Part shown: positions 314 through 31,182 of the stretch, piece by piece
Layout: each line of letters begins with the position of its first letter
How positions within the stretch are numbered: the stretch's first letter is position 1
Source: Dokdonia sp.
GTDB lineage: Bacteria > Bacteroidota > Bacteroidia > Flavobacteriales > Flavobacteriaceae
DNA: 32,221 bases
Direction: 5' to 3'
Assembly (NCBI GenBank): GCA_020628615.1
Contig: JAHDEV010000001.1
Location: 1 to 32,221 of the forward strand
Made by a program: the position numbers and the translations under genes
Notes under the pieces: model-generated
The model's database searches: none
What the model saw: only the letters and a program-made list of their open reading frames with translations
Told to the model about the DNA's origin: nothing

Positions 314-826
314 ATGCAAATTTCAGATTACATAAGAGACGTTCAAGACTTTCCTAAAGAAGGAATTATTTTTAAAGATATAACACCTTTGCTGGGAGAT
401 AAGACCGCTTTCGCGAAAGCGGAAGAAATTCTATACACCCTAGTGCCAGAAGTTGCAATAGATGTTGTGGTAGGAATTGAAGCGAGAGGTTTCTTTTACG
501 GACCGCTGCTTGCAAAAAGACTCAATGCCGGATTTGTACCCGTACGCAAGCCAAATAAACTACCTTATACTACCATTAAGAAAGAATATGATCTTGAGTA
601 TGGTACAGATGTGCTAGAGATGCACAGTGACGCTATAAAGCCGGGAGATAAAGTGTTATTGCACGATGATGTACTCGCCACGGGAGGAACGGCTGCTGCG
701 GTAGTTGCAATGATTGAGGAACTAGGGGGAGAGGTAGTACAGTGTAATTTTATTATAGAACTCGATTTCTTAAATGGTAGAAGCAAGCTGCCAGGTAAAC
801 ACGTTGTAGCTGCTATAACTTATTAA
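314..826 (+). CDS. apt: Adenine phosphoribosyltransferase
   Basis: This 170-residue cytosolic enzyme joins adenine to PRPP to give AMP in purine salvage, and its length is normal for the family. The type I phosphoribosyltransferase PRPP loop is visible as VLLHDDVLATGGTAAA near residues 114-129. The N-terminal part carries the family pattern DFPKEGIIFKDITPLL, and GIEARGF lies near residue 55. A perfect copy of the 16-bp palindrome is read in frame as AFAKA near residues 31-36 without lengthening the protein against what I recall of E. coli Apt. The gene faces the TonB-dependent receptor gene and their stop codons interlock by 4 bases. No good -7 box is visible upstream; AACTTTTG at about 273-280 is the nearest. 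Confidence 0.95.
   Translation: MQISDYIRDVQDFPKEGIIFKDITPLLGDKTAFAKAEEILYTLVPEVAIDVVVGIEARGFFYGPLLAKRLNAGFVPVRKPNKLPYTTIKKEYDLEYGTDVLEMHSDAIKPGDKVLLHDDVLATGGTAAAVVAMIEELGGEVVQCNFIIELDFLNGRSKLPGKHVVAAITY
405..422. repeat. Palindromic repeat copy 1, inside apt
   Basis: This is a perfect 16-bp core CGCTTTCGCGAAAGCG at 406-421, extended by one C/G pair to an 18-bp perfect palindrome. It is read in frame as AFAKA. Confidence 0.95.
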
Positions 827-3114
827 AAACTATACTGAAGACTAAAATTAGGCGTGATACCTAAAGATTTTACCGTGATTTTTTGAATTTCATCTTCGCT
901 ATTTATGAGATAATAGGTATTGAGTATATTATTGTTGTCTAGTAAATTCCATATAGAGGCTCCTACTTGTACGTCTTTATCAAAAAGTTGAAACTTGTAT
1001 ATGGCAGATATATCAAAACGTAAGAAACTATCTGAAAGATTACTATTCGGTAAATTGTAAATAATTTCTCCATCTACAATAGGGTTTTCTTCTCTTGGGC
1101 TAGTGAGAGGTGTACCTGTACGCCAGTTAAAGCCTAGTGAAAATTTGAAATCGTTAATAGTATACGTAGAGCCGTAGGTGAGTGAGTGCCTTATATCTGT
1201 ATTATTAGGGAAGCGTCTACCATTATTTAAACTCTCAAACTCAAAATTATTCTTACTAAAAGAGTAGGAGAGCCAGGTTCCAAATTTTTGAAACTGTTTA
1301 TTTACTAAAAAGTCTATACCCATCACATCATATGAGCCTACTGCATTTGTAAATTGAAACTGATTTTGAAATCCTTGACTACGTGAAGAAATTCCATCTA
1401 CATTTTTTATGTATCCTTCTACACTTAACAGCCATTTACTCTTTGTATAATCGAGGCTTACAGAAGCTTGTTTACTTTTTAAAATAGGAAACGAATCATC
1501 ATTTGCCGCAATCCAGCGGCTACGTTGCAATCCTAAAAAGTCATTAGGTTGATCAATTATTTGAAAAATAGACTGACTTTTAAACTCTCCTAAAGCACTT
1601 ATTTTTAAAAAACTCAAAAACCGCTGGCTAAAGCGTACTCTAGGCTCTATAATAAGGGTATTAAAAGTATCGAGATAATTACCTCTTACTCCCGTTATAA
1701 ATTGTGTCCCTTTAGAGGGAGAGAGGTAAGAAAGTTCAGAGTACAGGCTGTGTGTACGTATCACATTGCGCTCATTACTAAAAAAGATGGGCCTATTAGT
1801 TTGTGCAAGGTTACGAGCGCCCACCTCTGTAAACTGATAGCCATTATTCCAGATAAAGGTATCGGAGAGTTTACTGCTTAGCTGAAATTTTGCTCCTATA
1901 TCCAGCACTTCATTTTCTTGATCTAGTTGCTGTCCATTCTCTAAGTTAAAATTACGAGCATTGAGATTGTAATTTGATAGGTAAAGCTCTACATCTGTCG
2001 TGTGTTTTTTGTTCCAGTTTCTGGTGTAAAGGAGTCTTGCACCATTGTTACTCTGGTTAATACCGCTACGCTCATTTATTTCTAAGGCTCTAATGGTCTC
2101 ATCATACCCTAACTTATTATAGATTGTGGTTGCACTAAGCTTAAGTTTGTCTTTTTTTGAAATATCATAAATAAGATTTGTGCTTAGATCATAAAAGTAA
2201 AAATTGAGATCTGAGACTTGTGATTCTTTATCACTATTTATACTCAAGTCTGTATCTTGAAAAATACGATCGGTATAACTAGTATATGTGGGGCTCTCTA
2301 TAAAATCTGTATTAGATCGTCTTGCAGAGAGAGAGAGCGTAAGTTTTTTTGACAGGGGAAGTGTGGCAAATCCTTTAAGATGAAGCAAGTTTGCACTCAC
2401 ACTTCCTTCATAATCTGTAGCAACTTTATCATCTAGTTCAATATTTATGGTCCCAGACACTCCGTCTCCATATCTTGCGCTTGTGCCATTTTTAATAACT
2501 TCTACACGCTTTGTTAAGTAAGGATTAAAGGCAGATATGAGACCAAAAAAATGTCCAGATTGATACATTTTAATGCCGTCCCACAAGATAAGATTTTGAT
2601 CATTTGTGCCTCCGCGTATATTTACATCAGATACGGTTTCTTCTGTACTAAAAATACCGGGCAATGCCTGTACAGCTTGTAAAACATCAGGTTCTATGAT
2701 GCCTGGTAGTATTCCAAATTGTTCTGGGATGATACGCGTGATTCCAGATCTGGATTTTGAAATTCCCGTTGTAAGCAGGTTAGAGATGTAAATCTGGTCA
2801 AGTTCTTGTACCTCATTAATGATATTTTCTGTAATGACTATAAAACGTTCATTAAGAAAGTCAAAGCTTAGATCTGTATTGTTCTCAATATATTCTAGTG
2901 CTTGCGTGAGTGTAGACCCTTCAGATATATCTTTTATATATGTGGGAGCTACAATATGATCTGCATAAGAAAAGCTTACATTAAAAAGAGCCTCTAGATT
3001 ATTTAAAACTGTAGCTAGCGGAAGCGTTGCTGTATTTTGTTCTTGAGATTTTAGTTCAGAAAAAAATAAACAACAAAGTAAAGTGAAGAATGTAAGTACA
3101 CTTTTTTTAGTCAC
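823..3114 (-). CDS. TonB-dependent outer-membrane transducer (FecA-like, STN domain)
   Basis: This 763-residue outer-membrane receptor probably imports a ligand with TonB energy and signals its presence to the adjacent anti-sigma factor. A signal peptide (residues 1 to about 23) is followed by a secretin/TonB short N-terminal (STN) domain at roughly 30-95, with the pattern TLPLATVLNNLEALFNVSFSY near its start. A plug domain follows at about 115-235, containing NIRGGTNDQNLILWDGI and ending RYGDGVSGTINIEL. The rest is a beta-barrel of alternating strands ending in F, as expected for Bam insertion. The ATG overlaps the end of the FecR-like gene by 8 bases, so the two are translationally coupled. 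The STN domain marks a transducing receptor; the substrate (siderophore, glycan or other) cannot be told. The plug lacks the CarboxypepD-like extension of SusC proteins. Confidence 0.9.
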   Translation of the reverse strand: MTKKSVLTFFTLLCCLFFSELKSQEQNTATLPLATVLNNLEALFNVSFSYADHIVAPTYIKDISEGSTLTQALEYIENNTDLSFDFLNERFIVITENIINEVQELDQIYISNLLTTGISKSRSGITRIIPEQFGILPGIIEPDVLQAVQALPGIFSTEETVSDVNIRGGTNDQNLILWDGIKMYQSGHFFGLISAFNPYLTKRVEVIKNGTSARYGDGVSGTINIELDDKVATDYEGSVSANLLHLKGFATLPLSKKLTLSLSARRSNTDFIESPTYTSYTDRIFQDTDLSINSDKESQVSDLNFYFYDLSTNLIYDISKKDKLKLSATTIYNKLGYDETIRALEINERSGINQSNNGARLLYTRNWNKKHTTDVELYLSNYNLNARNFNLENGQQLDQENEVLDIGAKFQLSSKLSDTFIWNNGYQFTEVGARNLAQTNRPIFFSNERNVIRTHSLYSELSYLSPSKGTQFITGVRGNYLDTFNTLIIEPRVRFSQRFLSFLKISALGEFKSQSIFQIIDQPNDFLGLQRSRWIAANDDSFPILKSKQASVSLDYTKSKWLLSVEGYIKNVDGISSRSQGFQNQFQFTNAVGSYDVMGIDFLVNKQFQKFGTWLSYSFSKNNFEFESLNNGRRFPNNTDIRHSLTYGSTYTINDFKFSLGFNWRTGTPLTSPREENPIVDGEIIYNLPNSNLSDSFLRFDISAIYKFQLFDKDVQVGASIWNLLDNNNILNTYYLINSEDEIQKITVKSLGITPNFSLQYSF

Positions 3115-4009
3115 GTGATAAAGTTACCTTATTTCCCTGTTTTTTATGGGATAAATTAAATGGTAAGCTTATTGACTTTAAAGCAATCTCCATATTAAGA
3201 TGTGTAAATGTACCAGTAAAGAGTAGGTTTTCTACTTCTTTATCTAAAGATACAGTTACGTTATAATGTCTCTCAAATTCTTTAAGTACTTCACCTAGTG
3301 GTGTTTTTTCAAACGAGGTTTCATTAACTATCCAAGAGGGTTGAGATAGCGCAGTACTTGTATTAGTACTAGCTATTTTTACGCTTTCGCGAAAGCGGTC
3401 TCCAGGTTTTAAAATCACAGTTTTTGTAGCTGTTTCTACTTGTACAGATCCCTCGTAGCAGTATACTTCAAACTTATCATCTCTATTGCGCACATTAAAC
3501 TGGGTCCCTAGTACTGAAATCACACCATTAGAAGTCTCAACGCTAAATGTAGCACCCTTTGCCACCTGAAAGTAGGCTTCGCCATCTAGTGTCACAGCTC
3601 TAAACTCATCCCAAGTCGCTGGGTCATAATATAAATCAGACATTGCATTAATCGTAACAATAGAATTATCTGGTAAAGTCACAACCTCTTTTTGAGCAAT
3701 GGTAGTTGTTATCTCAACAGTTTGTTGCGATAATGTAGTAGCATAATAAATACCTGCAAACAAGATGAGAATTGCCGCGACTTTAAGAAATGGCTTGAGA
3801 TATATTATTCCAGATTTTGTCTTCGTATCTATGCTAGTCTGTAATCTCTCATACTCTTGTGTAGCTTTATATGCAGGAGGCACAAGCTGCTTTGTGGTCT
3901 CTGCGATACGCACGAGATCTTCATAATCTCCAAGACGCTTAAACTCCTGAAGCTCTGCTTCAGACAGCTCGTTGTCTAACCACTTTGTTATTAATTCTTC
4001 TCTTTCCAT
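3107..4009 (-). CDS. FecR-family anti-sigma factor / transmembrane sensor
   Basis: This 300-residue inner-membrane protein should hold the neighbouring ECF sigma factor inactive and receive the signal from the TonB-dependent transducer in the periplasm. A cytoplasmic anti-sigma part spans about 1-70 (starting EREELITKWLDNELSEAE). One membrane helix lies at about 74-92, followed by a FecR domain at about 105-205 (LPDNSIVTINAMSDLYYD, LDGEAYFQVAKG, VLGTQFNVR). The C-terminal DUF4974-like region covers about 225-298. A perfect palindrome copy lies at 3382-3397 and is read as RFRES. It sits 40 bases after the sigma gene and overlaps the receptor gene, so the three form one operon. Confidence 0.9.
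   Translation of the reverse strand: MEREELITKWLDNELSEAELQEFKRLGDYEDLVRIAETTKQLVPPAYKATQEYERLQTSIDTKTKSGIIYLKPFLKVAAILILFAGIYYATTLSQQTVEITTTIAQKEVVTLPDNSIVTINAMSDLYYDPATWDEFRAVTLDGEAYFQVAKGATFSVETSNGVISVLGTQFNVRNRDDKFEVYCYEGSVQVETATKTVILKPGDRFRESVKIASTNTSTALSQPSWIVNETSFEKTPLGEVLKEFERHYNVTVSLDKEVENLLFTGTFTHLNMEIALKSISLPFNLSHKKQGNKVTLSRD
3382..3397. repeat. Palindromic repeat copy 2, inside the fecR-like gene
   Basis: This is a perfect 16-bp core. On the coding (minus) strand it is read as RFRES, a different frame from the apt copy. Confidence 0.95.
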
Positions 4010-4049
4010 AGTATTACCTGTGTATATAACAGTGAGTATTGAGAAAGTC

Positions 4050-4568
4050 CTACTTAAGTTCTGTAATTTCTTTTTTAAGCTTTGCTAGCGCCCCATAAAT
4101 GCGCTTTTCTACAGCCTTTTTTGAGATGCCTAGCATCTCTGCTATTTCTTTATGTTTTTTACCTTCTATTCTGTTTAATAGAAATGCGCTGCGTTGTGCC
4201 TCACTTAGTTTTGCAATGGCCTTTTGTAGTCTTGCATTGTATTCTTGTTCTTCAAGCACAAACTCTGGCGACTCATTTGTATAATTTTGAGGTTTTGTTT
4301 TCTGAAACTTTAAAACAACCTTTTGATGCGCATAGGCATTTAACGTTAGATTATTTGCAATGGTAAAAAGGTAACTTTTTGCTTTTTCTTCAGGAACTTT
4401 TGAGCAATTTTCCCATAACTTCACAAATGCTTCTTGCACCTTATCTTCAGGGCTGTAGAGGCTCCCGTACTTGTAATATAGAAAATTAAAGAGGTTTTTA
4501 GAATGCGCCATAAAGACTCTGTTATAAACAGTTTCCTTACATACGCCTTCTGTGTTTTTTGTGCTCAT
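4050..4568 (-). CDS. ECF RNA polymerase sigma factor (FecI/RpoE-like)
   Basis: This 172-residue protein has the two-domain layout of ECF sigma factors. Region 2 lies at about 22-85, with FNFLYYKYGSLYSPEDKVQEAF and LWEN. Region 4 lies at about 115-170, with a helix-turn-helix around EGKKHKEIAEMLGISKKAVEKR. It should direct polymerase to the promoters controlled by the transducer/FecR pair encoded just downstream. The ATG at 4568 is the only good start. The upstream sequence TACGTTTA (4594-4587, minus) is one base off the housekeeping -7 box, so the operon is probably expressed at a basal level by the main sigma factor. The divergent lipoprotein gene is the nearest candidate target. Confidence 0.92.
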   Translation of the reverse strand: MSTKNTEGVCKETVYNRVFMAHSKNLFNFLYYKYGSLYSPEDKVQEAFVKLWENCSKVPEEKAKSYLFTIANNLTLNAYAHQKVVLKFQKTKPQNYTNESPEFVLEEQEYNARLQKAIAKLSEAQRSAFLLNRIEGKKHKEIAEMLGISKKAVEKRIYGALAKLKKEITELK

Positions 4569-4586
4569 TAATAGTGCAATATTAAA

Positions 4587-4594
4587 TAAACGTA
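4587..4594 (-). promoter_or_regulatory. Possible -7 box of the sigma/fecR/receptor operon
   Basis: TACGTTTA on the minus strand matches TAnnTTTG in all but the last base and lies 19 bases before the sigma-factor ATG. No clear -33 TTG is seen. Confidence 0.35.
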
Positions 4595-4644
4595 CATAAT
4601 TACTGCGGTAAGGTAGGAGTTTTTTAAATCTAGATGTTCTATAA

Positions 4645-4668
4645 TTGTAATCATAGATTCGATTACAA
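4645..4668. promoter_or_regulatory. Inverted repeat before the LamG lipoprotein gene
   Basis: TTGTAATC (4645-4652) and GATTACAA (4661-4668) are perfect inverted arms 8 bases apart, ending 4 bases before the preferred ATG at 4673. TATAATTG at 4640-4647 is one base off a -7 box and overlaps the left arm. The repeat could be an operator or a leader hairpin that hides the start codon. Confidence 0.4.
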
Positions 4669-4672
4669 AATT

Positions 4673-6676: not shown

Positions 6677-6678
6677 AG

Positions 6679-6744
6679 CAGCTCAATTTTTAAGGTTATT
6701 GAGCTGTATAAAGGGCTATCTTCTCAGATAGCCCTTTATTTTTG
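6679..6744 (+). terminator. Double hairpin terminator after the LamG lipoprotein
   Basis: A first hairpin, CAGCTCAAT/ATTGAGCTG (6679-6687 and 6698-6706), is followed at once by a second and stronger one, AAAGGGCTATCT/AGATAGCCCTTT (6710-6721 and 6726-6737) with a 4-base loop. ATTTTT follows. The second is a typical Rho-independent terminator. Confidence 0.85.
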
Positions 6745-6759: not shown

Positions 6760-6781
6760 TTACGCTTTCGCGAAAGCGTAA
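6760..6781. repeat. Palindromic repeat copy 3, intergenic
   Basis: A perfect 16-bp core at 6763-6778 is extended by TTA/TAA on either side to a perfect 22-bp palindrome. It lies between the terminator of the LamG gene and the stop codon of the MFS gene. Confidence 0.95.
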
Positions 6782-8218: not shown

Positions 8219-8242
8219 TTTACGCTTTCGCGAAAGCGTAAA
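8219..8242. repeat. Palindromic repeat copy 4, intergenic
   Basis: A perfect core at 8223-8238 is flanked by TTTA/TAAA, giving the longest perfect palindrome of the family in the window (24 bp). It abuts the A-run of the next terminator and lies upstream of the MFS gene. Confidence 0.95.
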
Positions 8243-9854: not shown

Positions 9855-11129
9855 ATGCAACGAGATACCGCCATTTTTGACCTAATACAAGAAGAAAAAG
9901 AACGCCAACTTAATGGCCTTGAGCTTATTGCTTCAGAAAACTTTGTGAGTGACCAGGTAATGGAAGCTGCAGGATCTGTACTAACTAATAAATATGCAGA
10001 GGGGTATCCCGGTAAGCGTTATTATGGTGGTTGTGAAGTAGTAGACGAGGTTGAGACACTAGCTATAGAGCGTGCAAAAGAGCTTTTTGGAGCAGCTTAT
10101 GCAAACGTACAACCACACTCAGGTTCTCAGGCAAACACGGCTGTTTTTCACGCTTGTTTAAAACCAGGAGATAAATTTTTAGGTTTTGACCTTGCTCACG
10201 GTGGTCACTTAACACACGGGTCGCCAGTAAACTTTTCTGGTCGTTTATATACACCAGTGTTTTACGGAGTAGATAAAGAAACGGGACTACTTAACTATGA
10301 TAAAATACAAGAAATCGCGACTGCAGAGCAGCCTAAAATGATTATTGCAGGTGCCTCTGCATACTCTCGTGAGATAGATTATAAACGCTTTCGCGAAATA
10401 GCAGACTCTGTAGGAGCTATCCTTCTAGCAGATATTGCTCACCCAGCGGGTCTTATTGCCAAAGGAATCATAGCAGACCCTATACCACACTGTCACGTAG
10501 TGACAACTACCACACACAAAACACTAAGAGGGCCACGCGGCGGAATGATACTTATGGGTGAAGATTTTGAAAACCCTTTTGGAATCACACTTAAGAGTGG
10601 AAAGAAACGTATGATGTCTTCATTGTTAGATAGTGGTATTTTTCCTGGGAACCAAGGAGGACCATTAATGCACGTGATAGGAGCAAAGGCAATCGCCTTT
10701 GGAGAAGCACTTACAGATGAGTTCTTACACTATATGGTGCAGGTTAAGAAAAATGCAACTACACTGGCAGATGCACTTGTGCTTAAAGGGTATGATATCA
10801 TATCTGGTGGTACAGATAACCATATGATGCTTATAGACCTACGCAACAAAGATGTAACAGGAAAAGCTGCCGAAGAAGCACTAGGTAAAGCAGATATCAC
10901 TGTAAATAAGAATATGGTACCGTTTGATGACAAGTCACCATTTGTTACCTCTGGTATACGTATAGGTACTGCGGCAGTGACTACGCGTGGTCTTGTAGAA
11001 GGTGATATGCACGAGATTGCAAACTTTATAGACAAGGCAATCCAGCACCACGATAATGATGAGGTGCTAGAAAACGTTGCAAAAAGTGTGAACGAAATGA
11101 TGGGACACAGACCATTATTTAAAGCATAA
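9855..11129 (+). CDS. glyA: Serine hydroxymethyltransferase
   Basis: This 424-residue PLP enzyme converts serine and tetrahydrofolate to glycine and 5,10-methylene-THF, the main one-carbon supply. The family signature [14 protein letters not shown] is present, with the PLP lysine at residue 222. The substrate-binding motifs IASENF (about 26-31), [13 protein letters not shown] (48-60) and HSGSQAN (about 88-94) are intact. Length is normal. Residues 178-182 (RFREI) are encoded by a left-arm copy of the palindrome, but KRFREIAD is also a common family sequence, so this copy may be coincidental. The gene is monocistronic, with its own promoter and terminator. Confidence 0.97.
10386..10398. repeat. 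Palindromic repeat copy 5, partial, inside glyA
   Basis: CGCTTTCGCGAAA matches the left 13 bases of the 16-bp core; the last three bases differ. It is read as RFRE(I). Confidence 0.6.
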
Positions 11130-11922: not shown

Positions 11923-11942
11923 TACGCTTTCGCGAAAGCGTA
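11923..11942. repeat. Palindromic repeat copy 6, between divergent genes
   Basis: A perfect core at 11925-11940 is flanked by TA/TA, giving a 20-bp perfect palindrome. It sits in the divergent region between the 62-residue membrane protein gene and the MazG-like gene, close to where both promoters must be. Confidence 0.95.
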
Positions 11943-17585: not shown

Positions 17586-18539
17586 ATGTCTGACGTAGCA
17601 GCCATAAAGAGTCTCGTGCAAAAACACGGATTACTCAAAACAGAAATATCAAAAATAATAGTAGGTCAAGAAAAAGTAATAGATGAGATTCTCCTCTCTA
17701 TTTTTTCTGGTGGCCACGCATTGTTAATAGGTGTTCCTGGGCTTGCAAAGACATTAATGGTAAACACTATTGCGACTACCTTAGGTCTTGATTTTAAACG
17801 TATACAGTTTACCCCAGACTTAATGCCTAGTGATATATTAGGATCAGAGATACTAGATGAGTCTAGACAGTTTAAGTTTATAAAAGGCCCTATCTTTTCG
17901 AATATCATTCTTGCAGATGAGATTAACCGTACACCACCTAAGACACAAGCAGCCCTTCTAGAGGCAATGCAAGAGCGCGTGGTTACAGTTGCCGGACAGA
18001 GATACCCTTTATCTTTACCATATTTTGTACTAGCTACTCAAAACCCTATCGAGCAGGAGGGTACCTACCCACTGCCAGAGGCACAGCTAGACCGCTTTAT
18101 GTTTTCTATTAATCTTGATTACCCATCTTTTCAAGAAGAGGTAGATGTTGTAAAAGCAACCACATCAGATAGTAAGCCTACCGTAGGCGCATTGTTAAAC
18201 GCAGCTCAGATTATAGAGTTTCAGCAACTAGTGAGACGCATCCCTGTTGCAGATAATGTAATTGAGTATGCAGTAAACCTAGTAAGTAAGACGAGACCTA
18301 AGACAGAAAAGGCAGCTCAGATTGTAAATGATTACATAGACTGGGGAGCTGGACCACGTGCATCTCAAAATTTAATACTAGGAGCAAAGACACACGCCGC
18401 TGTAAATGGTAAATTCTCGCCAGATATAGAAGACGTGCAAGCCGTAGCTACAGGTATCCTTAGGCACAGAATGATTAAAAATTATAAAGCAGAAGCAGAG
18501 GGGCTCACTATAGAGTCTATTATTAAAGATCTTTTTTAG
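17586..18539 (+). CDS. MoxR-family AAA+ ATPase
   Basis: This 317-residue cytosolic ATPase has Walker A GVPGLAKT (about 43-50), Walker B IILADEINR with the MoxR-typical NRTPPKTQAALLEAMQE, sensor ATQNPIEQEGTYPLPEAQLDRF and a C-terminal lid with GPRASQ (about 261-266). MoxR proteins act as chaperones, often for complexes whose VWA-domain and DUF58 partners are encoded beside them. No such partner follows here: the gene ends an operon of periplasmic folding factors, 8 bases after the surA-like gene. That location suggests, without proving, a role in envelope biogenesis. A partial palindrome copy begins two bases after its stop. Confidence 0.92.
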   Translation: MSDVAAIKSLVQKHGLLKTEISKIIVGQEKVIDEILLSIFSGGHALLIGVPGLAKTLMVNTIATTLGLDFKRIQFTPDLMPSDILGSEILDESRQFKFIKGPIFSNIILADEINRTPPKTQAALLEAMQERVVTVAGQRYPLSLPYFVLATQNPIEQEGTYPLPEAQLDRFMFSINLDYPSFQEEVDVVKATTSDSKPTVGALLNAAQIIEFQQLVRRIPVADNVIEYAVNLVSKTRPKTEKAAQIVNDYIDWGAGPRASQNLILGAKTHAAVNGKFSPDIEDVQAVATGILRHRMIKNYKAEAEGLTIESIIKDLF

Positions 18540-18541
18540 TG

Positions 18542-18554
18542 CGCTTTCGCGAAA
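18542..18554. repeat. Palindromic repeat copy 7, partial, after moxR
   Basis: CGCTTTCGCGAAA matches the left 13 bases of the core and starts two bases after the moxR-type stop codon. The right arm is lost (TTT instead of GCG). Confidence 0.75.
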
Positions 18555-18686
18555 TTTTATTTTCTATTTCTTTATTAATATTTAAATAATTGATAAGCAT
18601 TCCAGGTTTATTGCACGGTTTTGTGTTACCATAACTTTTCTATAAGTCACATATATTTAAGTATTTGATAATTTAATCAAAAATGC

Positions 18687-18726: not shown

Positions 18727-18746
18727 ATGATTTGGAGTGTTTGTCA

Positions 18747-18754
18747 TACATTTG
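18747..18754 (+). promoter_or_regulatory. -7 box of the 169-residue lipoprotein gene
   Basis: TACATTTG matches TAnnTTTG exactly, 24 bases before the ATG at 18779. There is no TTG at the usual -33 distance, consistent with activator dependence. Confidence 0.5.
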
Positions 18755-18778
18755 ACTTATACGCCCCAAATCATAAGT

Positions 18779-19285
18779 ATGATGAAGAAATATATATACT
18801 ATGCAGCGCTAAGCTGTTTACTAGCTTTTACTTCTTGCTCAGTAGAAGAAACAGTACCTAATAATACACTGGGTAATGAGAATGGATTTCAGTACAATAG
18901 CATTGCTTACATCACAGATATGGTATATGTGACGCCAGAGGGAGATGTTATCCTCACTAGTAATAACCTTTCTGATAATGGATCTGCAAATGATGTTGAT
19001 GTGGCTGTCTTTAAAACCATAGAAAGCACGCTAGTAGAACGTTCTTATTATGTGGGAGGAGATCTTACAAATTATATCACAGTTGCAAACGGAGATCTTA
19101 ATCAAGGCGAAGTGATTGATGGAGAGTTTATACTTGAAGAGAGTATCGTATCAAGTGGTTTTTTTAGAATCGTATCTGTAGACAGAAATAAGAAAGAAAT
19201 ACATCTCATATTTGAATTTCAGCGCACAGATGGTGAGCTGGTAGCCGGTTCTTTTAATGGAAACTACGCATTGAGTACATTTTAA
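18779..19285 (+). CDS. Hypothetical lipoprotein
   Basis: The start is placed at the ATG at 18779 (or 18782), giving about 168 residues. MKKYIYYAALSCLLAFTSC is a clear lipoprotein signal. An upstream in-frame ATG at 18737 would lie ahead of the -7 box and is rejected. The mature protein is acidic and made of predicted beta-strands, such as DVDVAVFKTIESTLVERSYYVGG and GELVAGSFNGNYALSTF near the end. I do not recognise the family. Its promoter region is unusual (20-bp phased repeats), which suggests condition-dependent expression. A one-mismatch palindrome and a terminator follow. Confidence 0.75.
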   Translation: MMKKYIYYAALSCLLAFTSCSVEETVPNNTLGNENGFQYNSIAYITDMVYVTPEGDVILTSNNLSDNGSANDVDVAVFKTIESTLVERSYYVGGDLTNYITVANGDLNQGEVIDGEFILEESIVSSGFFRIVSVDRNKKEIHLIFEFQRTDGELVAGSFNGNYALSTF

Positions 19286-19290: not shown

Positions 19291-19306
19291 CGTTTTCGCG
19301 AAAGCG
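19291..19306. repeat. Palindromic repeat copy 8, intergenic, one mismatch
   Basis: CGTTTTCGCGAAAGCG differs from the core at the third base only. It is followed by TAA, the flank seen in other intergenic copies, and lies between the lipoprotein stop and its terminator. Confidence 0.9.
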
Positions 19307-19329
19307 TAATTACCAACATAGAGATTTTA

Positions 19330-19372
19330 CCCCCTTAAATTATTAATATGATAATTTGAGGGGGTTCTTTTT
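19330..19372 (+). terminator. Terminator after the hypothetical lipoprotein
   Basis: CCCCCTTAAATTAT (19330-19343) pairs with ATAATTTGAGGGGG (19351-19364) through 14 pairs including one G-T, with a 7-base loop, followed by TTCTTTTTT. Confidence 0.9.
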
Positions 19373-22863: not shown

Positions 22864-22881
22864 ACGCTTTCGCGAAAGCGT
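22864..22881. repeat. Palindromic repeat copy 9, intergenic
   Basis: A perfect core at 22865-22880 is extended by one A/T pair. It lies between the hxlR-like gene and the Crp/Fnr-like gene. Confidence 0.95.
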
Positions 22882-24787: not shown

Positions 24788-24823
24788 AGGACACCTCACA
24801 TAAATAATAAAATATGTAAGTTT

Positions 24824-24863
24824 AATGCGTGTATACGACTCTTGTATACACGCATTATTTTTT
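24824..24863 (+). terminator. Terminator hairpin abutting the TlpA-like start codon
   Basis: AATGCGTGTATAC (24824-24836) and GTATACACGCATT (24844-24856) form a perfect 13-bp stem with a 7-base loop, followed by ATTTTTTT. The T-run ends directly at the ATG (24864) of the next gene. TAAGTTTA (24816-24823), one base off a -7 box, lies just before the hairpin, so the stem could also be part of the leader of the TlpA-like mRNA. Confidence 0.75.
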
Positions 24864-25436
24864 ATGAAAAAGCAAAAAAAGTTTACCTGGCAAAATGTTC
24901 TATTTATAGTAGTGATATTGTTGTTACTTATACCAAAAACTAGAACGCCTATACAGGTGGCCTTAAATAAAGTTAAGGTGGCAATTTTTTCTCCTTCCGC
25001 TTTCGCGAAAGCAGACCAGCAACAACTTAAGCCATTTACATATAGTCTTACATCACTAGATGGAGTGCCCAAAGAAGTATCTATAGGAACAGGAAAAGTA
25101 ACCTTTATAAGTTACTGGGCTACCTGGTGCCCGCCTTGTATTGCAGAGCTACCATCTATAGAAGCTTTATATAAAGATTATGGCGACAAAGTAGAATTTT
25201 TACTTATCACAAATGAAAATCCAGAAGTAGTAGCCCAGTTTATGGCAAAAAAAGATCACAAACTACCAGCAGTCTTACCGGCTATGGAAACTCCAGAACA
25301 ACTCTTTGAGCGTTCTATACCTACAACATATATTATAGATAAAACAGGTCATATCATTATAAAAGAAAAAGGAGCTTCAAACTGGAACAGCGATGCTGTG
25401 CGCACTACGCTAGATGAGCTTATCACGGAAGATTAG
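24864..25436 (+). CDS. Membrane-anchored TlpA/thioredoxin-like protein
   Basis: From the ATG at 24864 the product has 190 residues. One membrane helix (about 11-23) is followed by a linker and a periplasmic thioredoxin domain from about 58. The active site WCPPC is at residues 88-92 and the cis-proline loop at SIPTTYIID. Such proteins reduce or resolve disulfides in exported proteins or in cytochrome c maturation. A one-mismatch palindrome copy encodes AFAKA in the linker (46-50), a place where extra residues would be tolerated. The preceding terminator hairpin touches the start codon, and the stop interlocks by 4 bases with the convergent lipoprotein gene. Confidence 0.88.
   Translation: MKKQKKFTWQNVLFIVVILLLLIPKTRTPIQVALNKVKVAIFSPSAFAKADQQQLKPFTYSLTSLDGVPKEVSIGTGKVTFISYWATWCPPCIAELPSIEALYKDYGDKVEFLLITNENPEVVAQFMAKKDHKLPAVLPAMETPEQLFERSIPTTYIIDKTGHIIIKEKGASNWNSDAVRTTLDELITED
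24998..25013. repeat. Palindromic repeat copy 10, inside the TlpA-like gene, one mismatch
   Basis: CGCTTTCGCGAAAGCA differs from the core at the last base only. It is read as AFAKA, the same frame as the apt copy. Confidence 0.9.
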
Positions 25437-25897: not shown

Positions 25898-25912
25898 AGT
25901 TTTACGATTATA

Positions 25913-26518
25913 TTATCCGTGCATAGTTTCCTTAACACTTAGATCTTTCATTACTTGCTTTTCAAAATCAAGTAATTCTTGCCACTTGGCATCGACCTTT
26001 TTACGATCTCCATATTGACGAGCAAAATTTAAGAACATTGTGTAATGTCCCGCCTCACTTATCATAAGCTTACGGTAAAACTTAGCGAGCTTTTTATCTT
26101 CTAGCTGTTCTGATAGCAGTCTAAAACGCTCGCAACTTCTTCCCTCTATGAGTGCTGCTACAAGTAATCTATTTATTAAGCTTTCTACTCTTGAGCCACC
26201 TTTTGGGAAGTAAAAACGTAGTTTATGTACATATTCATCTTTACGCTCTCTACCTAAGTGTAAACCTCGTTCTACCATAAGGTCGTGTACCATTTTAAAA
26301 TGGCTCATTTCTTCGATAGCCAGATCACTCATTGCAGCTACAAGCTCTGAGTATTCTGGAAAACCTATAATAAATGAGATTGCGCTAGAGGCTGCCTTTT
26401 GCTCACAATATGCGTGATCTGTAAGGATTTCTTCTATGTTTTTTTCTACAATATTTACCCACCTTGGATCTGTAGGTAGTTTAAGATGTAGCATTTGTAT
26501 TGCTTCTTTATTTTCCAT
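25913..26518 (-). CDS. miaE: tRNA-(ms2io6A)-hydroxylase-like di-iron protein
   Basis: This 201-residue protein shows the ferritin-like four-helix ligand set of MiaE: HAYCEQKAAS, then LAIEEMSHF, then ALIEGRSCERF and SEAGHYTMF. The EEMSH and EAGHY segments supply the Glu-x-x-His pairs. MiaE hydroxylates the isopentenyl group of 2-methylthio-isopentenyladenosine at position 37 of tRNAs reading UNN codons, using O2. Length fits. The gene begins 11 bases after dnaX on the same strand, so it is probably co-transcribed with it. Confidence 0.88.
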   Translation of the reverse strand: MENKEAIQMLHLKLPTDPRWVNIVEKNIEEILTDHAYCEQKAASSAISFIIGFPEYSELVAAMSDLAIEEMSHFKMVHDLMVERGLHLGRERKDEYVHKLRFYFPKGGSRVESLINRLLVAALIEGRSCERFRLLSEQLEDKKLAKFYRKLMISEAGHYTMFLNFARQYGDRKKVDAKWQELLDFEKQVMKDLSVKETMHG

Positions 26519-26529
26519 AGCAAAGGTTT

Positions 26530-28461
26530 TTATAAATCTAGATCAAAAGTCTTTCTCAATATATCTAGAGCAGGATTCTGCTCTCTTAATTTATCGTATT
26601 TTTCTTGAGGAGTGTAGGCATATTTGCGCTGTACCTCTTCATTTACAGTGATATCAAGGGTGATATCATAGTTTTTTAAAGTTCTTTTTAAATATTCAAG
26701 TAGTGGTCCCTGTGCTCGTTCTACCTCTATTTTCATTGTTTCGTTAGGGTATTCTAGTTCTATGGTAGTTCCGTTAAGAGTAGGTTGGTCTGCTTCAAGA
26801 TTTGAAGCGATGATGCGCTCTCCTTTTTGTAGTAGTTTTTTCACGTAAGAAGCCCAAGCGGCTTGCATTGCGATTTCTGTAAAGGGTTCTGATGGCAGGT
26901 TTTGAACATCTACTTTTTTATCTGCCTTTTGTTGTTCAAGTTCTTTTTTGCGTTGTAAGCCTTTTAGAGAAAGCCCTGATACTCTGTCCTTGCGTATAGA
27001 TAGGCTTGGTGTTGCCTGTGTAGTGGGTGAACCTTGAGCAGGTACAGGTTGCTCTGGTTGAGCAGGAGTAGCTGGACTTACTTGTTCTGTTACTGGTGCA
27101 GTTGCATTAGCTTCGGCGCTAATTGGTGAGACTTGCGTAGTCACTTGGGACTCGTTATCGCTTACTGGAGTAGCTATATTGTGATTTACGGGCTGCTTTT
27201 CTGTAATAGCTGGTTCTTGCGCCTGTTGTACAGGTGATGTTTGTTGAGCTTGTGTAGAGCTATGTGCGGCTTGCTCTTGTGAAGTTTGGGGTTGTGCTAC
27301 CTGTTGTACGGCTGGAGTGTTAACTTGAATTTGTGCTGTTTGTGTAGCATCTACCTTATAATAAGATGGCGGAACTATGAATGGACCGTCATTTTTTTTT
27401 TCTCCATCAAAAGTGATAGAGGCAAGTTGCATAAGGCTTAGTTCTACCAGTAATCTCTGGTTACGACTGGTTCTAAATTTAAGATCACAAGTGTTTGCTA
27501 TTTCTATAGCTTCCATTAAGAAAGGCATAGAGGTTTTTTGTGATTGCTCGTAATATTTTTTCTTAGTGCTGTCACCTACTTCTAGTAAATGTATTGTAGG
27601 TGGGTTTTTACAAACCATTAGGTCTCTAAAGTGTGATGCCAGACCTGCTATAAAATGATGCCCGTCAAAACCTCTTGCCAGGATATCATTAAACTGTACC
27701 AGTACCTGCGGGATATCATTTGCCAGTAAGAGATCTGTAGTTGTAAAGTAGGTGTCGTAGTCTAATACGTTTAGATTTTCGGTTACCGCTTTTCGCGAAA
27801 GCGTTTTCCCACTAAAACTTACTACTCTATCAAAAATAGATAATGCGTCACGCATTGCTCCATCTGCCTTTTGTGCGATAATGTGCAGTGCTTCTTCATC
27901 TGCTTCTATACCTTCTTCGGCAGCGATTTGTACTAGGTGCTTGCGCGCGTCTGCTACTGTGATACGTTTAAAGTCAAATATTTGACAACGAGAGAGTATA
28001 GTAGGTATAATTTTATGCTTCTCTGTGGTGGCAAGTATAAATATAGCGTGCTTAGGTGGTTCTTCTAGTGTTTTAAGAAAAGCGTTAAAGGCTGCTGCAG
28101 AGAGCATATGGACCTCATCTATAATATAGACTTTGTATTTACCTACCTGAGGAGGGATACGTACTTGATCTATAAGGCTTCGTATATCATCTACAGAGTT
28201 ATTTGAAGCGGCATCTAGCTCAAAAACATTGAAGGCAAAGTCTTCATCTGGGCTAGTATGTTCGTCTGTGTTTATCTGTTTTGCTAGTATACGGGCACAA
28301 CTCGTCTTTCCCACTCCTCTAGGACCACAAAAAAGTAATGCCTGTGCAAGGTGGTTGTTTTGAATCGCATTTTCAAGCGTGTTAGTAATAGCTTGTTGTC
28401 CCACAACATCTTTAAAGGTGGTAGGGCGATATTTTCGAGCTGATACTATGAACGGTTCCAT
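26530..28461 (-). CDS. dnaX: DNA polymerase III subunit gamma/tau
   Basis: The product has 643 residues from the ATG at 28461. A GTG two codons earlier lies inside the -7 box and is rejected. The clamp-loader AAA+ domain shows VGQQ, Walker A GPRGVGKTSCARIL (about 47-60), Walker B YIIDEVHMLS and the SRC arginine finger. The zinc-binding cysteine loop found between Walker A and ELDAASNN in many bacteria is absent, which I recall as normal in Flavobacteriaceae. A Gln/Pro/Thr-rich linker (about 370-480) precedes a C-terminal tau-like domain. A palindrome copy with one extra T (27787-27803) is read as LSRKA near residue 222. I see no obvious slippery site for the short gamma form, though I did not examine this exhaustively. 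Confidence 0.95.
   Translation of the reverse strand: MEPFIVSARKYRPTTFKDVVGQQAITNTLENAIQNNHLAQALLFCGPRGVGKTSCARILAKQINTDEHTSPDEDFAFNVFELDAASNNSVDDIRSLIDQVRIPPQVGKYKVYIIDEVHMLSAAAFNAFLKTLEEPPKHAIFILATTEKHKIIPTILSRCQIFDFKRITVADARKHLVQIAAEEGIEADEEALHIIAQKADGAMRDALSIFDRVVSFSGKTLSRKAVTENLNVLDYDTYFTTTDLLLANDIPQVLVQFNDILARGFDGHHFIAGLASHFRDLMVCKNPPTIHLLEVGDSTKKKYYEQSQKTSMPFLMEAIEIANTCDLKFRTSRNQRLLVELSLMQLASITFDGEKKNDGPFIVPPSYYKVDATQTAQIQVNTPAVQQVAQPQTSQEQAAHSSTQAQQTSPVQQAQEPAITEKQPVNHNIATPVSDNESQVTTQVSPISAEANATAPVTEQVSPATPAQPEQPVPAQGSPTTQATPSLSIRKDRVSGLSLKGLQRKKELEQQKADKKVDVQNLPSEPFTEIAMQAAWASYVKKLLQKGERIIASNLEADQPTLNGTTIELEYPNETMKIEVERAQGPLLEYLKRTLKNYDITLDITVNEEVQRKYAYTPQEKYDKLREQNPALDILRKTFDLDL
27787..27803. 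repeat. Palindromic repeat copy 11, inside dnaX, one extra base
   Basis: CGCTTTTCGCGAAAGCG is the 16-bp core with one additional T in the left arm. On the coding strand it is read as LSRKA, the third possible frame. Confidence 0.88.
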
Positions 28462-28466
28462 ACTCA

Positions 28467-28474
28467 CAAATATA
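28467..28474 (-). promoter_or_regulatory. -7 box of dnaX
   Basis: TATATTTG on the minus strand ends 5 bases before the ATG at 28461. The predicted transcript start falls on or next to the ATG, so the mRNA may be leaderless. Confidence 0.5.
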
Positions 28475-28519
28475 AAGGGGTATATAAAATTATACTAGTG
28501 AGTATGGCCTCTTTCTTGT

Positions 28520-28693
28520 TTACTTATTAACAGTAAGGGCAGATACTTTTTGATCTATGACCTTTACCATTATTTGATAGCTGTGACTTGCCATCTCGTC
28601 TGTACCGTTCCATTTTTTTGCATTTGAGATTGCTTTTTTACGGTACGCCTTTAAGCGCCTCAGTTTTTCTGAGGAATAGAATAGGGATTTCAT
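28520..28693 (-). CDS. Small basic protein (57 residues)
   Basis: The reading frame begins MKSLFYSSEKLRRLKAYRKK and ends VSALTVNK. It is soluble, rich in Lys and Arg in the first half, and probably helical. It lies between the Lacal_2735-like gene and dnaX on the same strand, with 58 bases to the dnaX ATG. I do not recognise a family. Support is the clean open frame with ordinary codon use in a stretch that otherwise has no gene. Confidence 0.5.
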   Translation of the reverse strand: MKSLFYSSEKLRRLKAYRKKAISNAKKWNGTDEMASHSYQIMVKVIDQKVSALTVNK

Positions 28694-28776
28694 ATAAGAG
28701 TGTTTAAGGTTTGCGGTTGTAAAATAGAAAGAATCTTACAATACTTAGTAGAAAATCAAAACATTATGTTAAAAAT

Positions 28777-28941
28777 TTATGAATGTCGTGATATCTCTTT
28801 TTCTATTTCGGCAGCTTCTGCATATAGCTTATCGCTCGCACTTCGGTCACTCTTAGATAGTTGGAAGGCTTGTTCTAGTATCTTTTTGTGTTTTTCTTGT
28901 AGTTTTTCAACTGGGCTTTTCTTTTTAAATAATCCAAACAT
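28777..28941 (-). CDS. Lacal_2735-like small protein
   Basis: From the ATG at 28941 the product has 54 residues, starts MFGLFKKKSPVEKLQEKHKK and ends EIEKEISRHS. It matches my memory of the small Lacal_2735 family of Flavobacteriia: a MFGLFKKK start, a helical coiled body with LSKSDRSASD in the middle, and a final EIxKxI helix. Function is unknown. A longer in-frame start at 29019 would add 26 residues outside the family pattern. TATCTTTA (28963-28956, minus) is one base off a -7 box. Confidence 0.75.
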   Translation of the reverse strand: MFGLFKKKSPVEKLQEKHKKILEQAFQLSKSDRSASDKLYAEAAEIEKEISRHS

Positions 28942-29102
28942 TTCTTTTTTTCTTTTAAAGATACGGCTTGAAGCGGTCTTTTTCAAGGCTATATATGTCT
29001 GTTTTACAATTGAGGGCATATTTTCTACAATTCGGTAAGTACTACTTTAAAAACAAGCTATTTGATATGATATTTACACCATCAATCAATAACAAAGTAA
29101 TT

Positions 29103-29387
29103 ATGAGAACTTCAGATCAAGAAAACAAATATCAAAGAGCACAAGCAAGAGTAGGAGAACTTAAAGAGTTTTATAACCATCTAGGCATTTATTTAATTTT
29201 TGTCGTATTCTTTCTATCGCTTAACTATTTTACGAGCGGTTATTTTTGGGCAATCTTTCCTATATTAGGTTGGGGACTTGGTATATTAGGCCACGCAGCA
29301 AATACCTTTAGATGGAATCCTTTTTTCTCAAAAGAGTGGGAGCAGCGCAAGATAGATGAGTACTTACGTAATGATGATTTAAAATAA
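29103..29387 (+). CDS. 2TM-domain protein 1
   Basis: The start at 29103 gives 94 residues beginning MRTSDQENKYQRAQARV; upstream in-frame starts lack the family pattern. The 2TM domain is a charged helix with KYxRAxxRVxxxKxFYxHL, two membrane helices (about 28-45 and 50-66), and a cytoplasmic tail ending FSKEWEQRKIDEYL. In Bacteroidetes this domain is found alone or at the N-terminus of LytS-type histidine kinases. It is the first of three consecutive 2TM genes. Confidence 0.85.
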   Translation: MRTSDQENKYQRAQARVGELKEFYNHLGIYLIFVVFFLSLNYFTSGYFWAIFPILGWGLGILGHAANTFRWNPFFSKEWEQRKIDEYLRNDDLK

Positions 29388-29393
29388 TAGCAT

Positions 29394-29705
29394 ATGGAAA
29401 CGCCACAAGAAAAATATCAAAGAGCAGTGGCTCACGTACAAAAGGTGCGTAAGTTTTATGGTAAAATTATAAATGCTATCATCGTTTGTGCCGTTATCGC
29501 GGGGATAAATTATTATGTAAATGAGTTTAGAAACCCTTGGGTACTGTGGGTAGTAGGATTCTCACTTCTAGGTATTGTGATAGACGGTCTCAAGCTGTTT
29601 GGTCTAGGTATCTTTTTAGGAAAAGGATGGGAACAGCGTAAAATACAAGAACACCTAGAGAGAGATGAAAGAGAAAATTCTTCAAACCCTATAATAAGAA
29701 AGTAA
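29394..29705 (+). CDS. 2TM-domain protein 2
   Basis: This 103-residue protein has the same layout as its neighbours: EKYQRAVAHVQKVRKFYGKIINAI, two membrane helices and a tail with LGKGWEQRKIQEHLERDE. Six bases separate it from the first 2TM gene, and its stop overlaps the start of the third by one base (TAATG). It is the most divergent of the three in the membrane part (NYYVNEFRNPWVLWVVGFSLL). Confidence 0.85.
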   Translation: METPQEKYQRAVAHVQKVRKFYGKIINAIIVCAVIAGINYYVNEFRNPWVLWVVGFSLLGIVIDGLKLFGLGIFLGKGWEQRKIQEHLERDERENSSNPIIRK

Positions 29706-30040
29706 TGGAGTATAGTAAAGAAAAATATGAACGCGCAAAAAAACGCGTAGCAGATGAGAAAGGTTTCTATAATCACCTTACCGTCTATCTCGTCATAAAC
29801 ACCTTACTACAGCTGTTTTATTCAGGCATCTTTTTTGACTTACATATCGGTGAGTATGCGCCGTGGTGGGTGCGATTTACAACACCTTTTTTTTGGGGAT
29901 TGTCTCTATTTATACACTGGATTTATGTTTTTAAAGGCTTTAGATTTTTAAAAGGCATACGTAAGTGGGAAGAGCGCAAGATTAAAGAGTTTATGCAAGA
30001 AGAGGAGGAAGAGTTTTCTTCACGCTTTCGCGAAAAATAA
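29705..30040 (+). CDS. 2TM-domain protein 3
   Basis: This 111-residue protein starts MEYSKEKYERAKKRVADEKGFYNHL, has two membrane helices (about 28-46 and 57-77) and a tail KWEERKIKEFMQEEEEEF. Its last residues SRFREK are encoded by a partial palindrome copy running into the stop codon. The start overlaps the previous stop (TAATG). The next gene, an amidohydrolase, begins 5 bases after the stop. All three 2TM genes, the amidohydrolase and the LytTR regulator are on one strand with short gaps. Confidence 0.85.
   Translation: MEYSKEKYERAKKRVADEKGFYNHLTVYLVINTLLQLFYSGIFFDLHIGEYAPWWVRFTTPFFWGLSLFIHWIYVFKGFRFLKGIRKWEERKIKEFMQEEEEEFSSRFREK
30023..30035. repeat. Palindromic repeat copy 12, partial, at the end of the third 2TM gene
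   Basis: CGCTTTCGCGAAA matches the left 13 bases of the core. It is read as RFREK immediately before the stop. Confidence 0.7.
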
Positions 30041-30045
30041 AAACT

Positions 30046-31182
30046 ATGAAAACACTACTACTTACACTCCTGCTAGTTATAACTTCTATAACTAGCGCTC
30101 AAGGAGATTTTGTTATAAACAATGTAACACTATTTAATGGAGAAGAAATTTTAGAAAACCGATCTGTAGCAGTAAGTAACGGGACGATAACTAAAGTATC
30201 TAAAAGACCCCAAAAAGCCGAAACCATCATAGACGGTCGAGGTAAATTCTTAATGCCAGCTCTTACAAATGCACACGTGCACACCTGGGCATTACCACAA
30301 CTTAAAGAAGCAGCTCAAGCAGGAGTGCTTAACCTACTAGATATGCACGGTATGGAACCTATGCAAAAAGCAATGGTAGATGCCAGAACCTCTCTAGATG
30401 GTGCTAGATTATACAGAGCAGGATATGCTGCCACCACAGAGGGCGGTCACGGTACACAATATGGATTTCCTATTCCCACTTTAAGTAAACCCGCAGATGC
30501 TGAACCGTGGGTGAATGACAGAGTAGCTGCAGGTGTAGATTATATTAAAATCATAGTAGAGCCGTGGAAAAAGACACTGGATAAAGAAACGGTAGCACAG
30601 ATTATAAAAGAAGCACATAAAGCAAGTAAAATAGCAGTCGTACACGTTTCAAATGAAGAAGATGCTTATAATTCTTTAATTAGTAATGCAGATGGACTCG
30701 TACACATCTATCACGATAAACCTATGACAGATGCCCACTTACAAGCGCTAGTAGGAGAGAAGGACTTCTTTGTAATACCCACCATACTTACCACGGTGTT
30801 GATACAGCCTTTGTACTTTAATAAAACCACAGAGGAGACAGCCCTTATAGAAGCAAATCTTTTAAAAGAGGTAAAACGTCTGTATGACGCTGGGATTCCT
30901 ATACTGGCAGGTACAGATCCACCTAATGCAAATATTAACATAGGAAGTGATTTGTATAAAGAGTTGGCTTTTTTCGCGAAAGCGGGATTACCCATAGAGG
31001 CTGTACTAGCAAGTGCTACGTCACTACCTGCAGAGAAGTTTTCTCTAGAAGGAGTAGGATACATAAAGAAAGGCTATAAAGCAGATTTGCTATTGCTGGA
31101 GCAATCACCAGTAAATGATGTAATGAAGCTCAATACATTATCACATATCTGGAAAGAAGGTACCCTTGTCGAGCAAGAATAA
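30046..31182 (+). CDS. Exported amidohydrolase-family metal enzyme
   Basis: This 378-residue protein has a signal peptide ending TSAQ (about residue 19). The amidohydrolase barrel contains the metal motif AHVHTW (His77 and His79), a lysine in DYIKIIVEP that may be carbamylated, the later ligands VVHVSN and LVHIYH, and AGTDPP with the catalytic Asp. Relatives include imidazolonepropionase-like and peptidase-like (Xaa-Pro/Xaa-Arg) amidohydrolases, so the substrate may be a small peptide or cyclic amide. A palindrome right-arm copy is read as FFAKAG near residues 309-314. Its place between 2TM genes and a LytTR regulator is probably operon hitch-hiking, though a sensing role is possible. Confidence 0.85.
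   Translation: MKTLLLTLLLVITSITSAQGDFVINNVTLFNGEEILENRSVAVSNGTITKVSKRPQKAETIIDGRGKFLMPALTNAHVHTWALPQLKEAAQAGVLNLLDMHGMEPMQKAMVDARTSLDGARLYRAGYAATTEGGHGTQYGFPIPTLSKPADAEPWVNDRVAAGVDYIKIIVEPWKKTLDKETVAQIIKEAHKASKIAVVHVSNEEDAYNSLISNADGLVHIYHDKPMTDAHLQALVGEKDFFVIPTILTTVLIQPLYFNKTTEETALIEANLLKEVKRLYDAGIPILAGTDPPNANINIGSDLYKELAFFAKAGLPIEAVLASATSLPAEKFSLEGVGYIKKGYKADLLLLEQSPVNDVMKLNTLSHIWKEGTLVEQE
30972..30984. repeat. Palindromic repeat copy 13, partial, inside the amidohydrolase gene
   Basis: TTTCGCGAAAGCG matches the right 13 bases of the core; the left arm is T-rich instead. It is read as FAKAG. Confidence 0.7.

Follow-up and report, generated by a model that had tools for sequence, protein, structure and literature searches.

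The window analysed here, the first 32,221 bases of contig JAHDEV010000001.1 from Dokdonia sp., carries a 16-letter palindrome, CGCTTTCGCGAAAGCG, perfect or nearly so, at 13 places. Each copy holds an intact central 10-mer, TTTCGCGAAA (the core), and at least one full CGC/GCG arm; the extended core is the 13-mer TTTCGCGAAAGCG. The window is 94.2% identical to Dokdonia isolate 3-709 (G209), in which 13 of the 13 cores are kept, against 61% of 10-mers. The copies are located in and between open reading frames (ORFs) as follows:

406..421, perfect 16-mer, inside a phosphoribosyltransferase-like ORF of 170 amino acids (314-826)
3382..3397, perfect 16-mer, inside a FecR-like ORF (3107-4009, minus strand)
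6763..6778, perfect 16-mer, intergenic between convergent ORFs, with a separate terminator-like hairpin at 6708-6739
8223..8238, perfect 16-mer, intergenic
10386..10401, one-arm copy CGCTTTCGCGAAATAG, inside the serine hydroxymethyltransferase (SHMT) gene (9855-11129), where it encodes RFREI with synonymous codons; common to the dense genome G190 (see below)
11925..11940, perfect 16-mer, intergenic between divergent ORFs
18542..18557, one-arm copy, directly 3' of the stop of ORF 17586-18539
19291..19306, one-mismatch copy, directly 3' of the stop of ORF 18737-19285, with a separate terminator-like hairpin at 19329-19365
22865..22880, perfect 16-mer, intergenic
24998..25013, one-mismatch copy, inside a redoxin-like ORF (24825-25436); perfect in G209
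27788..27803, one-arm copy, inside a DnaX-like ORF (26530-28467, minus strand)
30023..30038, one-arm copy, at the 3' end of ORF 29705-30040
30969..30984, one-arm copy, inside an amidohydrolase-like ORF (30046-31182)

The core is expected 0.04 times in the window (mean of dinucleotide shuffles), and none of 100 shuffles reached 13 copies. A scan for the 16-mer with up to three mismatches returned the same 13 places, against 0.03 expected, and chance or base composition is therefore ruled out as the source of the copies. A preliminary description of this DNA had placed all 13 cores within a few bases of where we found them, and its estimate of about 0.04 chance 10-mers in 32 kb agrees with the shuffles. 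Its six perfect copies were also recovered, whereas of the three single-change copies it listed two are such (19291 and 24998), that at 10386 having two changes; the remaining four differ from the 16-mer at three positions.

The genome to which the window belongs (G000) is a draft of 2,716,266 bases in 252 contigs, 77% complete. It holds 590 perfect 16-mers, whereas the reversed control sequence has 0, and the 13-mer is found 707 and 710 times on the two strands (control 1 and 0), with no strand excess. A repeat limited to one segment is thus ruled out. The chromosome-wide motif proposed in the preliminary description is borne out, and neither of the two outcomes it had named as contrary, a count near the Markov expectation or confinement to this segment, was found.

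In a survey of 397 Flavobacteriaceae genomes from 237 genera (an earlier, first sample comprised 199), six genomes from three genera (g1, g11 and g191) were dense in the motif, with 153-630 copies each, while the other 391 had 0-13. A scan of titled records gave a similar distribution: among the 106 matches listed, 86 stretches are titled Nonlabens or Dokdonia, five Flavobacteria bacterium BBFL7, and the remaining 15 come from scattered taxa. Fourteen genomes picked via the motif (13 titled Dokdonia or Nonlabens, and BBFL7) contain 378-876 13-mers per strand, whereas Flavobacterium salmonis, F. phragmitis and one Aquimarina contain 1-7. The genomes referred to most often below are Dokdonia isolate 1128 (G211), Nonlabens xiamenensis (G203) and G190, the dense genome of the third genus, a single contig of 3.16 Mb. 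For the relatives G198 and G076, covered over 40 kb each, the eight top words listed included no other iterated palindrome.

The SHMT of G000 is 99.5-100% identical to that of G209, and in an SHMT tree both G010 and BBFL7 fall with Nonlabens. The 17 dense rows among the 45 rows of this tree require two changes. As a test of a single origin of the dense genera this is weak, because it uses one gene and because the motif-poor rows were picked by their similarity to Dokdonia. In Nonlabens tegetincola (G200) the C-terminal part of SHMT recurs in several truncated copies spread over contigs C4, C12, C13 and C14, possibly a repeat or an effect of assembly.

Over 21 stretches of the own genome, 282 kb with the window included, there are 90 cores, or 0.32 per kb, of which 55 have both arms, 31 have one and 4 have none. 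The corresponding numbers are 23, 44 and 9 in G211 (n = 76), 24, 31 and 19 in G190 (n = 74), and 18, 2 and 1 in six stretches of the Nonlabens group (n = 21). The core hardly varies in Dokdonia and Nonlabens. Perfect cores outnumber cores with one change by 90 to 16 in G000 (6.5 one-off cores expected by chance), by 76 to 21 in G211 (13.5 expected) and by 25 to 3 in Nonlabens (5.0 expected). Both inner half-sites of the palindrome are near-invariant, and deviations are found mostly at the outermost base. In G211 this base mostly shows C>T: its copies with one or two mismatches have 65 counted substitutions, of which 49 are outer C>T. Among the six Dokdonia searched this genome also ranks lowest in 13-mers per Mb, and the two features look like those of a motif in the course of shifting or relaxing in its lineage. 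On the 5' side the flanks are rich in T and G, on the 3' side in A and C, a bias that is strongest (as TTA/TAA) at intergenic Dokdonia copies and weak in G190. The flanks show no consistent excess of base pairing beyond the consensus when compared with shuffles (intergenic sites of G211 lie above, intergenic sites of G000 and coding sites of G211 below), and a longer hairpin formed by covarying flanks was rejected on this account.

The copies are more evenly spaced than chance, in G190 solely as a deficit of short gaps. The coefficient of variation of the gaps is 0.60 in G000, 0.55 in G211, 0.66 in four other Dokdonia (40 kb each, one stretch being syntenic with the window) and 0.80 in G190, against 0.91, 0.82, 0.88 and 0.87 when copies are placed at random in the same stretches. 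Gaps shorter than 1 kb number 9, 1, 3 and 3, respectively, where 22.7, 9.3, 7.9 and 10.6 are expected. Furthermore, the variance of counts per 20 kb divided by their mean is 0.10 in G000 (6 stretches), 0.21 in G211 (22 stretches) and 0.51 in the four other Dokdonia (8 stretches). Along 22 stretches of G190 there are 1-8 copies each, and a gradient is not visible.

Copies occur both within and between genes. With ORFs from a greedy caller that has no start-site model, which assigns about 89-92% of the DNA to ORFs, the copies inside ORFs of at least 150 amino acids number 45 of 90 in G000, 45 of 75 in G211, 57 of 74 in G190, 20 of 40 in the four other Dokdonia and 15 of 21 in the Nonlabens group; 38, 26, 12, 12 and 5, respectively, are intergenic, the remainder being in small ORFs. 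Intergenic DNA is thereby over-used, with 38 of 90 sites in about 8% of the DNA of G000, 26 of 75 in 10% in G211 and, weakly, 12 of 74 in 9% in G190. The preliminary statement that copies ignore operons is to this extent only partly right. Coding copies occupy all three reading frames. The intergenic copies of Dokdonia lie nearer to the 3' than to the 5' ends of genes (medians of 29-33 versus 79-84 nt), a proximity absent from G190 (60 versus 48 nt) and the Nonlabens stretches (103 versus 86 nt). In G000, divergent promoter regions have 2 sites in 5,875 bp and convergent regions 10 in 2,386 bp; as G211, G190 and the other Dokdonia do not show this, we make no claim of promoter avoidance. Two close Dokdonia and G190 also have a core some 40 bp past the stop codon of parB (L317:3114, L320:10883, L316:9057), a position at which D. 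sinensis (L321) and BBFL7 (L319) have none.

The SHMT gene shows how one copy arose. The segment KRFREIAD is largely conserved across 30 aligned genes, none of which has a gap there. The own genome and G190 encode RFRE as CGC TTT CGC GAA, which produces the 13-mer CGCTTTCGCGAAA, whereas the other 28 use at least one different codon. Judged from the alignment, this copy, in the one gene traced, originated through synonymous codons and without insertion; by the genetic code, a second arm would require the next isoleucine to become serine. The core is kept in the other Dokdonia compared and in Nonlabens xiamenensis, and not kept in G199, G205 and G010. A whole-copy insertion was not found in any of 18 rows in which a core was not kept, three of which hold a gap of 1 or 6 bases; a separate SHMT comparison has one row with a 2-base insertion.

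Positions are also retained between more distant genomes. At 73-74% identity, where 6-8% of 10-mers are kept, the cores kept are 3 of 3 from G000 to G202, 4 of 8 from G000 to G211, 4 of 5 from G211 to G000, 2 of 3 from G202 to G211 and 2 of 3 from G201 to G202. Closer pairs kept 2 of 4 (G201 to G211, 78%) and 6 of 6 (G201 to G210, 85%, where 25% of 10-mers are kept). Across genera, where identity is 68-71% and 2.5-4.5% of 10-mers are kept, 3 of 5 cores are kept from G211 to G190 and 3 of 5 in the reverse direction, 1 of 3 from G000 to G190 and 1 of 1 in reverse, and from the Nonlabens group 2 of 3 to G190, 1 of 1 to G000 and 1 of 3 to G211. This is not proof of common descent, because the numbers are small, the SHMT copy recurs in several of the pairs and coding copies in conserved peptides could have arisen twice; across genera, convergence on permissive peptides may account for part of it.

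The motif is found in some phages as well. Among 41 motif-found viral stretches, some of which are of high G+C and perhaps chance matches, 20 proteins sampled from ten loci gave matches to portal, terminase, head and tail proteins. Perfect copies number 4 and 3 in two contigs with an integrase match (L116 and L119, of 23.9 and 30.6 kb), and 6 in a third contig (37.4 kb), which has genes for phage heads and tails. In L116 (position 2736) and L119 (10351) a core lies about 10 bp past the integrase stop codon, which could be part of an attP site or ordinary 3'-end placement. In the similar phage contigs L124, L125, L129, L136, L140 and L141 two cores are kept, separated by 4480 bp in three contigs, by 4345 bp in two and by 4880 bp in one, so that copies look conserved within a phage family. 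The Nonlabens phages P12024S and P12024L, near relatives that we count once and take to be lytic, have no annotated integrase. Their 35.7 kb contain neither a core nor a 16-mer with up to three mismatches, where a density of 0.19 per kb, as in the Nonlabens stretches, would give about 7 cores. These phages annotate their own ERF and YqaJ recombination genes.

In our judgement the motif is very probably a real, maintained recognition sequence of some reader. After the rejections described here, the remaining profile is that of the uptake sequences treated in passages of PMC1626085 and PMC1939737, and for this reason we tentatively favour, at somewhat less than an even chance, a role as a genome-wide watermark of self-DNA that would act like a DNA uptake sequence. 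This reading, absent from the preliminary description, fits most features. A sequence-specific receptor would prefer extracellular DNA containing TTTCGCGAAA, most of all where one or both GCG arms are present, and copies would be spread and repaired through homologous recombination of that DNA until the genome was evenly tiled. Natural competence of the hosts, the receptor, biased uptake and the resulting drive are all steps that we infer.

The likeness to the uptake signal sequences (USS) of Pasteurellaceae and the DNA uptake sequences (DUS) of Neisseriaceae lies in sequence features. Passages of PMC1626085 note as puzzling that USS and DUS, in contrast to ordinary regulatory binding sites, have an excess of perfect over one-off copies; the numbers given for the Haemophilus influenzae USS in PMC1939737 are 1471 perfect and 764 one-off. 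Regular USS spacing is described in passages of both papers, and USS copies arise by substitution. Dokdonia and Nonlabens likewise have hundreds of near-perfect copies with perfect ones far in excess, and further shared features are regular spacing, a coding copy produced by point mutation, preference for non-coding DNA, biased flanks and no bias of orientation. The presence of the motif in two integrase-bearing phage contigs, with none in the two Nonlabens phages, also fits: Haemophilus phage HP1, which is temperate and infects a classical USS host, likewise bears the sequence of its host, with 17 USS in 32.4 kb against 0.33 expected. The motif differs from USS and DUS in being palindromic, in its length (about 13-16 bp rather than 9-12), in belonging to Bacteroidota, in the lack of a type IV pilus/type II secretion system (T4P/T2SS) ATPase match in 12 of the 16 dense genomes, and in its patchy occurrence, in 3 of the 237 sampled genera.

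Several observations weigh against an uptake sequence. The motif is a perfect palindrome, although 31 of the 90 own-genome copies have one arm, and palindromic sites are more usual for cytoplasmic dimers. The consensus of G190 is loose, with 74 perfect and 75 one-off cores (19.8 expected), 19 of the 74 cores lack arms, and counts per 20 kb are near random (variance/mean 0.84, 22 stretches); this lineage may be gaining, losing or differently using the motif. The phage contigs that bear the motif were selected for having it, and their hosts are not established. Neisseria and Haemophilus take up DNA by type IV pilus machinery, whereas the T4P/T2SS ATPase (PF00437) is above cut-off in 4 of the 16 dense genomes, other uptake machines not having been searched, and in 6 of 28 motif-poor genomes. 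Known uptake sequences are non-palindromic, according to PMC1939737 where it describes them. R. columbina favours its own DNA according to the relevant passage of PMC7965970, whose k-mer table for it has A/T-rich words only, and so the one relative with demonstrated self-preference shows no such motif in that table. The missing ATPase counts less as a misfit, because Riemerella can be transformed although no pilus homologues were found in it, according to passages of PMC8459023, and because of the self-preference of R. columbina; transformation without pilus homologues in Flavobacteriaceae and this self-preference speak for the uptake reading. The Riemerella transformation genes named in PMC8459023 include those for ComEC, a helix-hairpin-helix protein, a DUF1343 protein and a carboxypeptidase-regulatory-like protein.

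A rather unlikely rival is a chromosome-organising site, at which a cytoplasmic dimeric protein (nucleoid-associated, condensin-loading or topology-related) would bind the palindrome and selection would keep one copy per 3-6 kb. A palindrome with both inner half-sites near-invariant is consistent with such a dimer, as are the even spacing with no gradient visible in G190, the conserved positions, and the presence of the motif in integrase-bearing phage contigs and not in the two Nonlabens phages. Ordinary binding sites, however, have many one-off copies, unlike those of Dokdonia and Nonlabens, and since the dense genera are not one group on the SHMT tree the reader would have been transferred or repeatedly lost; no candidate protein was found. 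An additional ParB or Noc protein as reader was not found either, and the copy number of ParB_N does not follow motif density across 16 dense and 14 motif-poor genomes. The site itself shares the TTTC and GAAA half-sites of parS and Noc sites but separates them by a 2-bp spacer instead of the four bases of TTTC-N4-GAAA, and is present in hundreds of copies all round the chromosome; a parS or Noc site accordingly fits poorly. The nucleoid or segregation protein site of the preliminary description thus survives as a rival, with the ParB_N counts and the lack of a visible gradient in G190 detracting from it.

We consider it improbable that methylation or another modification at the TCGCGA centre, together with mismatch repair, makes and holds the sites, as in the model for highly iterated palindrome 1 (HIP1) set out in parts of PMC4390886. 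The HIP1-like appearance noted earlier is real: like HIP1 (GCGATCGC, of cyanobacteria) and the alternate HIPs, the motif is a highly iterated palindrome with slack outer bases, deviations being mostly at the outermost base as passages of PMC4390886 describe for HIP1, and the outer C>T changes of G211 are consistent with this. The motif is longer than HIP1, however, and sparser, at 0.17-0.32 cores per kb against about 1 per kb given for HIP1 in a passage of PMC4390886. None of the four methyltransferase families tested was both shared by the 16 dense genomes and lacking in motif-poor ones, other families and non-methyl modifications not having been searched. PF00145, PF01555, PF02086 and PF02384 were found in 8, 5, 8 and 15 of the dense genomes and in 2 of 7, 3 of 7 (one below cut-off), 4 of 7 and 3 of 3 motif-poor genomes, and G190 has a single PF01555 gene without any member of the other three families. 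In addition, the usual targets of methyltransferases are far shorter than 13-16 bp. The methylation or protection site suggested in the preliminary description is accordingly not supported so far.

More doubtful still is a Chi-like recombination site, palindromic so as to regulate a host end-processing nuclease from both sides. An even spacing of about 3-5 kb would suit it, as would the ERF and YqaJ genes of the motif-free Nonlabens phages, but known Chi sites are short and non-palindromic. The 31 one-arm copies of G190 show no polarity by replichore (9/5 versus 8/9, where GC skew served to guess the origin and terminus), which argues against this reading and against an oriented FtsK-orienting polar sequence (KOPS) or Chi in general.

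That the palindrome is a copied mobile element, resembling repetitive extragenic palindromes (REP) or miniature inverted-repeat transposable elements (MITE), or a transcription terminator, is hardly credible: the over-use of intergenic DNA, the iterated and REP-like placement near gene 3' ends in Dokdonia and the ability of the 16-mer and its TTA/TAA extension to fold as hairpins would fit, but, unlike REP and bacterial interspersed mosaic elements (BIME), many copies are intragenic and the one traced arose by substitution at synonymous codons rather than by insertion, one-arm copies are left with a 3-pair stem, 2 of the 13 window copies score as terminator-like with better hairpins adjoining those at 6763 and 19291, the T/G-rich 5' and A/C-rich 3' flanks are the opposite of a U-tract, and the flanks have no consistent pairing beyond the consensus. 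Rfam at gathering scores found one tRNA in the window and nothing else.

Outside the dense genera, small clusters of perfect copies occur in motif-poor genera (G076:C3:32330-82910, G078, G087, G101, G111, G144 and G326; L028 and L018), with recurrent spacings of 933 and about 2,446 bases. The copies opened in Aquimarina and another Flavobacteriaceae (L028 and L018) fall within genes for efflux, namely that of an outer membrane efflux protein and an ORF for heavy-metal efflux of the CusA/CzcA type. This position inside efflux genes suggests transferred islands, and the clusters may trace islands moved out of Dokdonia or Nonlabens. Two copies opened in Flavobacterium are each single and intergenic.

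No text match to CGCTTTCGCGAAAGCG, TTTCGCGAAAGCG or CTTTCGCGAAAG and no description of the motif were found in the papers searched, and among listed papers containing TTTCGCGAAA as text, or on palindromes of Dokdonia or Nonlabens, none appeared by title or opening of the abstract to concern such a motif. A motif iterated hundreds of times, evenly and with few errors, in few marine bacterial genomes appears to behave much like the tags by which other bacteria recognise their own DNA. It might possibly represent the first palindromic self-DNA uptake sequence, serving a pilus-independent machine of Bacteroidota and marking Dokdonia, Nonlabens, a third genus and some resident phages, or else a new, evenly tiled chromosomal site with a putative reader.

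Few groups are known to possess recognition sequences that are spread over the whole genome and shape each gene in which they occur. Bacteroidota would be added to these groups with a palindromic example, in genera that mostly have no detected type IV pili, the usual DNA-receptor machinery. The uptake of DNA by flavobacteria and their preference for self would become directly assayable with one synthetic 16-mer. If the motif is a chromosomal site instead, the same 16-mer would be a ready bait for a new nucleoid protein. Furthermore, the motif may serve as a tracer of DNA that has left Dokdonia or Nonlabens.

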